From assembly GCA_009783265.1 (NCBI GenBank), contig WRHM01000003.1, positions 124,001 to 188,000 of the forward strand: a DNA stretch of 64,000 nt. The letters are read 5' to 3'. This DNA comes from Oscillospiraceae bacterium. Lineage in GTDB: Bacteria; Bacillota; Clostridia; Oscillospirales; WRJC01. The notes under the pieces were generated by a model, which saw only the letters and a program-made list of their open reading frames with translations, was not told the DNA's origin and ran no database searches. Both the position numbers and the translations under genes were made by a program. The first letter of the stretch is position 1, and each line of letters opens with the position of its first letter. Positions 21,121-53,592 of this stretch are shown one piece after another.

Positions 21121-21277
21121 ATACCCTCTTTAGTTTAAAGAGGGTGGCACGCGAGATGTTGTGTAAATTATTGTAAGTTTACGTTTAGTCCGCGTGACGG
21201 GTGTTTTGTTAAATTTGATGTTTCTTAAAAACACCCGCCGCCTGCGGGCGGCACCCTCTTTAAATCAAAGAGGGTAA
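21121..21277. repeat. composite palindromic repeat after rpoC
   Basis: Both ends are near-identical 23-bp palindromes (21123-21145 and 21253-21275, ACCCTCTTT...AAAGAGGGT). Between them lie a CACGCG/CGCGTG pair, a GGGTGTTTT/AAAACACCC pair and a GCCGCC/GGCGGC hairpin. There is no coding frame. It fills the rpoC-XRE intergenic space, which otherwise holds only the rpoC terminator. Confidence 0.7.
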
Positions 21278-38988: not shown

Positions 38989-40128
38989 TTAATTCTCCGT
39001 TATCTCTATTTTATATAAATTTATATTATTATCTTCAATAATTTTTATATTTTTAAAATTAAATTTTTCTTTAAGCTTGCTTATATTTTTTTTCTTATGC
39101 CCCATAACTTTTGACATGTTTTTTTTGTTTGCGCGTATAATTATTGCAACCCCCGCCGTCTGCGGACGGCACCCCCTTCTGAGAAGGGGGCTGGGGTTAT
39201 AAGCTTCTTTCTTTTGCCCCCTGGAGAAGGGGGTGGCTCCGCAGAGTCGGGGGTTGTAACCGCTTATCTCATCAACTATTTTATCATATATAATCTCGCT
39301 TTCCACGAGTTCGCCGAATGCGGGGTGATACGCTCCGGCGATAATATCCGAGTTATTTATATCAGACGAACAAAGTCCCATTCTTAAAATTTCTATTTTA
39401 TTAAAATCAAAAATATTTTTTATTTTTTTTGCTCTGAATATTGCCTCGTCAAGGCTCAAAGGCTCGTATTTATTTGATTTATACATATTATAAAGCTGTG
39501 TGTCCCGCAATATAACAGTCGGGTATATTCTCGACGAATCAATTCCGAGATTTACAAGTTCTTCAGCCGTTTTTATATCTCTTTCCCTGTTCGATCCCGG
39601 CAGTCCGAGCATCATCTGCCCGGTTAAGTTTATTCCCGAAGATTTAATAATTTCACATGCCTTTTTCGTGTTTTCAACAGTGCAGCCTCTTTTGCACGCA
39701 TTTAAAACTTCGTCAAACATGCTCTGGATTCCCAGTTCTATTGATTTTACGTTATATTTCAGCAAAATATCTGTTATTTCCCGGGAAATATAATCAGGCC
39801 GCGTAGAAATCCTTATACCGTTTATTATTTTATGTTTTTCGATATATTCATTTGCGATTTCTAAAAATTTTATCATCTGGGATTTTTCAAGCCCGGTAAA
39901 TGAACCTCCGAAAAAAGCGATTTCCGTACCGACAGAATTATTATAATTATCGTCAATACGGTCAATATTTTTATAAATAATATCAATAAATTTTTCGATT
40001 GTCTCTCTTATCTCTTTTTCCCCTGAGCTTTCGCTCTGCCCTGTTATTATCTTCTGATTACAGAATACGCAATCGTTTCTACATCCTGAATGCGTGATAA
40101 ATACGGGTATATTATAATGCTTTCTCAT
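38989..40128 (-). CDS. Elp3-like radical SAM protein with in-frame palindromic insertion
   Basis: A 379-aa protein. Cys16, Cys20 and Cys23 (CRNDCVFC) bind the radical cluster; FFGGSFTGL and SIELGIQS are the other core motifs. This clostridial family usually sits between rnc and smc; it is related to Elp3 radical SAM domains but has no acetyltransferase domain. Near residues 290-328 about 38 residues rich in Pro, Arg and Gly are encoded by a palindromic repeat (39144-39259). The flanking sequence resumes with IIIRANKKNMSKVMGHKKKN, a KH-like tail. The frame is intact, so the protein may still fold. Confidence 0.88.
   Translation of the reverse strand: MRKHYNIPVFITHSGCRNDCVFCNQKIITGQSESSGEKEIRETIEKFIDIIYKNIDRIDDNYNNSVGTEIAFFGGSFTGLEKSQMIKFLEIANEYIEKHKIINGIRISTRPDYISREITDILLKYNVKSIELGIQSMFDEVLNACKRGCTVENTKKACEIIKSSGINLTGQMMLGLPGSNRERDIKTAEELVNLGIDSSRIYPTVILRDTQLYNMYKSNKYEPLSLDEAIFRAKKIKNIFDFNKIEILRMGLCSSDINNSDIIAGAYHPAFGELVESEIIYDKIVDEISGYNPRLCGATPFSRGQKKEAYNPSPLLRRGCRPQTAGVAIIIRANKKNMSKVMGHKKKNISKLKEKFNFKNIKIIEDNNINLYKIEITEN
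39144..39259. repeat. palindromic repeat inserted in frame in a radical SAM gene
   Basis: A 116-bp element with 12-bp terminal inverted repeats matching at 11 of 12 positions (39144-39155 and 39248-39259). Internal hairpins include GCCGTC/GACGGC and CCCCCTTCT/AGAAGGGGG. It has the same style as the rpoB-rpoC element (C-rich ends, GC hairpins, AT-rich centre) but different sequence. Confidence 0.8.
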
Positions 40129-53430: not shown

Positions 53431-53592
53431 GTAGGGGCGGCTGCATAGGGTCGCAAAAGTGAATCAAACAGCAGGTTCGCGGGTGAACTTAACTGTGGTC
53501 GTTCCCTACACTCCCCAAAAAATAATCAAGTTTTTATATAAATAACATACGGAATTTAATCTGTAGGGAACGCCGCCCCCGGCGTTCCCTGC
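53431..53592. repeat. palindromic repeat region between natB-like and gpmI
   Basis: A perfect 10-bp hairpin (53565-53574 with 53581-53590, AGGGAACGCC) and a 10-bp arm at 53501-53510 that matches 53562-53571. The left end has another C/G-rich stretch (AGTAGGGGCGG). It holds no gene and may act as a terminator for both converging operons. Confidence 0.55.

Follow-up and report, generated by a model that had tools for sequence, protein, structure and literature searches.

The window analysed here, a stretch of 64,000 nucleotides, belongs to the source genome (G000), a draft of 2.59 Mb in 17 contigs that is 91% complete. It carries a palindromic element within a radical SAM gene and a second member of the same repeat family between genes, as follows:

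38989-40128, reverse strand: host ORF, a 379-aa radical SAM protein with the Pfam domains Radical_SAM and Radical_SAM_C
39144-39259, no strand assigned: palindromic element, an inside-out unit pair, in frame at residues ~290-328 of the radical SAM ORF
39147-39192, forward strand: unit A (CAACCCCC-hairpin-CACCCCCTTCTGAGAAGGGGGCT), 100% identical to the unit at C4:144617-144662 of the same genome
39193-39215, no strand assigned: non-conserved centre separating units A and B
39216-39256, reverse strand: unit B, inverted, with a diverged first hairpin (GACTCTGCGGAGCC)
21121-21277, no strand assigned: second family member in the window, CCCTCTTT subfamily, an outward pair between genes

The in-frame palindromic repeat at 39144-39259, described in an earlier note on this DNA, is confirmed by its arms, its fold, the open host ORF and its recurrence across the genome. 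The inverted arms of the 116-bp element (39144-39155 and 39248-39259) are 12 nt long and 92% complementary, and its full length forms a single long hairpin (-79.6 kcal/mol, z = -7.5) that was equalled in stability by 0 of 200 shuffled sequences; the fold of the coding strand has z = -7.05. The host ORF reads through the element without a stop. The same note was right to call the host protein Elp3-like: both radical SAM Pfam domains are present and the NCBIfam Elp3 model matches the ORF with a score below the model cut-off, which makes the protein Elp3-like and not Elp3.

The note also held that the element adds about 38 residues. In the orthologue alignment that it proposed, nothing in two genomes of the same genus (orthologues 67-72% identical over the best segments) or in more distant clostridial orthologues corresponds to residues ~290-328, so the absence stands. 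The size needs adjustment: linker length differs among orthologues, and the net gain relative to the nearest relatives is therefore ~24-31 aa, not exactly 38. As 116 is not divisible by 3, the true insertion ends may also differ from the ends of the element, and the relatives are too distant to pin them exactly. In the AlphaFold model (model mean 89), the insert has a pLDDT of 45-59 and lies between a helix (271-291) and a strand (327-333), i.e. it is modelled as a low-confidence linker joining well-predicted parts. The predicted insert-derived peptides include EAYNPSPLLR in the radical SAM protein and VTTTPAAEAALPSEK in isoleucyl-tRNA synthetase (IleS).

This single copy is a member of a genome-wide family. 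BLAST searches with the element gave 85 matches across the 2.59-Mb genome, and the core hairpin pattern matched 93 times in forward and 90 times in reverse orientation, against 2 and 4 for a reversed control. A unit-oriented pattern gave 160 matches (some of them overlapping) against 0 in the control, and the closest subfamily comprises 38 hairpins in the genome. In 400 kb sampled around copies, we found 112 units that make up 81 elements; this pattern-based sampling was systematic for contigs C1, C2 and the first part of C3, and elsewhere covered the closest subfamily only. The unit is ~46 nt long and has two hairpins (i.e. (C)AACCCCC, a short variable hairpin, CACCCCCTT, a loop and AAGGGGGCT). 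The 81 elements consist of 49 single units, a count that may include pairs whose diverged partner was missed by the pattern, 26 outward pairs and 6 inside-out pairs, the window copy at 39144-39259 among the last. Outward pairs have AAGCCCC...GGGGCTT ends and a partly conserved centre of ~30 nt. Terminal inverted repeats are present, but outward and inside-out copies do not share the same ends.

Genic copies were called with a home-made codon model trained on 28 long ORFs of the window. Under a strict rule (both flanks clearly coding and in a common frame), 16 elements are genic and 16/16 are open in the host frame, with 0 stops. Under a looser rule, the count of elements in frame within ORFs rises to 27 of 81; four of these are close to a gene end, and two share one gene. 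The codon model places the remaining 54 elements between genes, a class that includes a few small same-strand gaps representing possible split genes (e.g. C1:201876, C1:273916 and C1:480074); two of the 54 touch a scored ORF, one a 60-aa ORF that is probably spurious and the other through a single-base overlap at the ORF edge. Breakage of host genes by other copies, which the earlier note named as a finding that would count against it, was seen for none of the 81 elements, with the caveat that long-broken genes would have decayed to an intergenic appearance. Open frames are commoner in genic than in intergenic copies, both among single units (p = 2.5e-5) and among pairs (p = 1.2e-3). Given the open frames of each element, the chance that 27 of 27 would be open in the host frame is ~4e-6, before a further 1/3 for frame retention. 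This excess fits an intrinsically stop-poor sequence together with purifying selection. At least five reading frames of the unit are used in genes.

Hosts that score above curated cut-offs are IleS, DNA gyrase B (GyrB), DnaX, DXS, RimO, HtpG (HSP90), asparagine synthase and a hexose kinase of the 1-phosphofructokinase type. For one further host, PrmC is the sole matching model, with a score below the cut-off, and others were named by eye from sequence (i.e. AddA, AddB, Ogt and RsmG-like, RlmI-like, RqcH-like and U32-peptidase-like proteins). More than one repeat-derived insert is apparent in AddB (L200:6981-10814; TPVSGFADGGTSRTPSPTQKGA), GyrB (L038:887-3073; PTPSANGASFTEGV) and the RqcH-like protein (L007:852-2912), which makes the 27 genic copies probably an undercount.

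We then compared these loci with two genomes of the same genus (G001 and G002). About 18 hosts could be aligned with one or both, and in nearly all of them the insert is missing from at least one relative; for IleS, HtpG and RimO, DNA alignments show the gap in the relatives directly. The insert loop of IleS is occupied in the source genome and in G002, by different arm types, and is empty in G001; relative to solved IleRS sequences, the insert sits in an alignment gap. The insert loop of DnaX is occupied in the source genome and in G001. Filling of these two loops in different species suggests that insertions have struck the same tolerant loops across species. Among the loci examined in the relatives, G001 has 11 elements, 4 of them in frame, and G002 has 9, of which 1 is in frame. 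Strong DNA matches occur in 10 of 394 genomes drawn from the order, belonging to this genus, to one other family and, in one genome, to a third; the nearest named relative is the Oscillospiraceae MAG Emb289P4bin38. Units of the family are also found on two IMG/VR contigs filed as viral (L272 and L273, with six units on L273): either the family is carried by phages or these contigs are host DNA.

These data are probably explained by a lineage-specific family of short, mobile and selfish palindromes that lie in frame in genes and are translated, with frame-breaking copies removed by selection. The family and the arrangements of its units, the in-frame copies in core genes, the relatives without inserts and the finding of no gene-breaking copy are the parts of this explanation that were observed. 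The ~46-nt unit with its two hairpins would spread widely, singly or as inverted pairs. Because the sequence is GC-rich, stop-poor and open in most frames, many genic insertions can keep the frame; to judge from their sequence, in-frame copies would be translated as spacer peptides of ~16 to 44 residues in loops and linkers of the hosts, and insertions that break useful genes would be purged by selection. Copy number and empty sites together point to mobility and transposition of the copies. The units may be moved by an activity that recognises hairpins and either works in trans or has disappeared: their occurrence singly and in both inverted orders favours such an activity over a MITE mechanism bounded by terminal inverted repeats, a preference that we hold with roughly even confidence.

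A possible though rather unlikely alternative is that the repeats are REP-type elements whose mobility depended on a RAYT (Y1) transposase of the genus, since lost from the source genome. Units that occur singly or in both inverted pairings are known from REPs (PMC3733652), Y1 genes are present in both G001 and G002, and the source genome also has a separate GTAG-tagged repeat. However, our transposase search, which covered three families (Y1_Tnp, rve and DDE_Tnp_1), returned no Y1_Tnp in the source genome, an absence that is weak for a draft of 91% completeness, and no family units lie in the ~3.4 kb of sequence around each of the four Y1 loci examined in the relatives. The unit also lacks the GTAG tag, and a GTAG/CGTC tag combined with a single 5-13 bp stem was not found; one arm type contains CGTC, without the described stem or tail.

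The label MITE, used in the earlier note, implies that the element arose by deletion from a DDE-type insertion sequence, whose transposase acts on terminal inverted repeats. This reading agrees with the size (~116-130 bp), the inverted ends and the 26 outward pairs with AAGCCCC/GGGGCTT ends. We nevertheless consider it unlikely, somewhat more so than loss of a RAYT, because these 26 pairs show no target-site duplication (matches of at least 5: 0 against a shuffled mean of 1.0), many units are single and six pairs are inside-out. Moreover, the one DDE_Tnp_1 gene of the source genome has 0 family units within the surrounding 3.6 kb, and no gene with an rve domain was found in this 91% complete genome. 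As neither a target-site duplication nor, among the three transposase families searched, a transposase whose ends match was found, the label is not upheld, and the layout is nearer to REP-type organisation. Two intervals between elements were inspected as candidate autonomous parents and rejected: by eye, the ORFs at C1:463.6-465.7 kb read as a sigma-factor-like protein plus one that is uncharacterised, and those at C1:547.1-549.6 kb as an ABC-transporter ATPase alongside a helix-turn-helix regulator.

Domesticated or regulatory insertions, with hairpins or peptides retained as useful (e.g. because they influence mRNA stability or serve as new linkers), would be in keeping with the very stable hairpins and with IleS and DnaX loops that are each occupied in two species. 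This appears improbable, since the hosts are unrelated, several reading frames are used, many orthologous sites are empty and the radical SAM insert is predicted with low confidence. It is more improbable still that the insert is excised from mRNA or skipped in translation and is thus absent from the mature protein. Long perfect hairpins occur in core genes and translation of the inserts is read from sequence, both of which leave room for such a process; however, every genic copy is open in the host frame and has fewer stops, neither of which skipping would need, and no intron or other curated structured RNA of Rfam matched in the window at gathering scores. If true, it would imply a general bypass mechanism that yields normal-length proteins although hairpins interrupt dozens of genes, core genes included. 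An assembly artefact or decayed pseudogenes, for which the draft state of the genome (17 contigs, 91% complete) might speak, are scarcely credible against many independent loci in three genomes and full-length housekeeping ORFs above curated cut-offs.

A second, unrelated repeat family with a GTAG-tagged REP layout (GTAGGG plus a perfect stem) is present at 53563-53591 of the window, on the forward strand, and elsewhere in the source genome (e.g. G000:C1:474482, C1:576982 and C10:74400). It gave 54 matches in the 400 kb sampled around the palindrome copies; 11 of 49 scored sites are in frame in genes, with 0 stops there, and are often read as VGRDDPGAP. In G001, a RAYT-like Y1 transposase gene (L281; G001:C57:5870-6241) appears to contain GTAG-type hairpin repeats in its own frame.

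In-frame selfish palindromes have so far been a curiosity centred largely on Rickettsia. About 27 in-frame copies, many of them in core genes, differing loop occupancy in relatives and a second in-frame repeat family make up a system in which it can be tested how frequently new peptide segments arise from small mobile repeats and which factors hold these in check. They also carry a practical warning: repeat inserts in proteins from metagenomes will pass for new insertions or domains.

The likeness to Rickettsia palindromic elements (RPEs) that the earlier note drew is supported: in a gut clostridium, too, we find short palindromes in frame in unrelated genes as well as in spacers, tolerated in conserved proteins and absent from orthologues. 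To our knowledge, no transposase is known for RPEs. RPEs are ~105-150 bp long, occur in frame in many unrelated genes and also between genes, are tolerated in conserved proteins and are each described as encoding a conserved peptide (PMC10969869, PMC2229807). The likeness is one of a way of working, not of sequence kinship or membership. The clostridial family belongs to another lineage and has another sequence, its ~46-nt two-hairpin unit also occurs alone and it is read in at least five frames, in contrast to the conserved peptide of RPEs.

GTAG/CGTC REPs occur as single, head-to-head or tail-to-tail units and are found in frame in genes, including those for replication and repair; CGTC REPs are without a dedicated transposase (PMC3733652). 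The clostridial family resembles intragenic REPs in its single or inverted-pair units in frame in genes, and CGTC REPs likewise lack a dedicated transposase. By contrast, REPs have a single 8-9 bp stem with a GTAG/CGTC tag, whereas the clostridial unit has 46 nt, two hairpins and no constant tag. GTAG repeats are listed from Proteobacteria, Cyanobacteria, Chloroflexi and PVC bacteria, with Firmicutes and Clostridia unmentioned (PMC3733652). ERIC, the 107-bp Correia element and other MITEs are also small inverted-repeat elements with open frames fused to genes; for ERIC and Correia, the features listed are terminal inverted repeats, TA ends and a target-site duplication (PMC2229807), whereas no such duplication was found in the clostridial family. 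We found no prior description of in-frame palindromes in clostridia in the open-licence literature. New here are the clostridial home of the family, how many core genes serve as hosts and its reading in at least five frames; the mode itself is known from RPEs and intragenic REPs.
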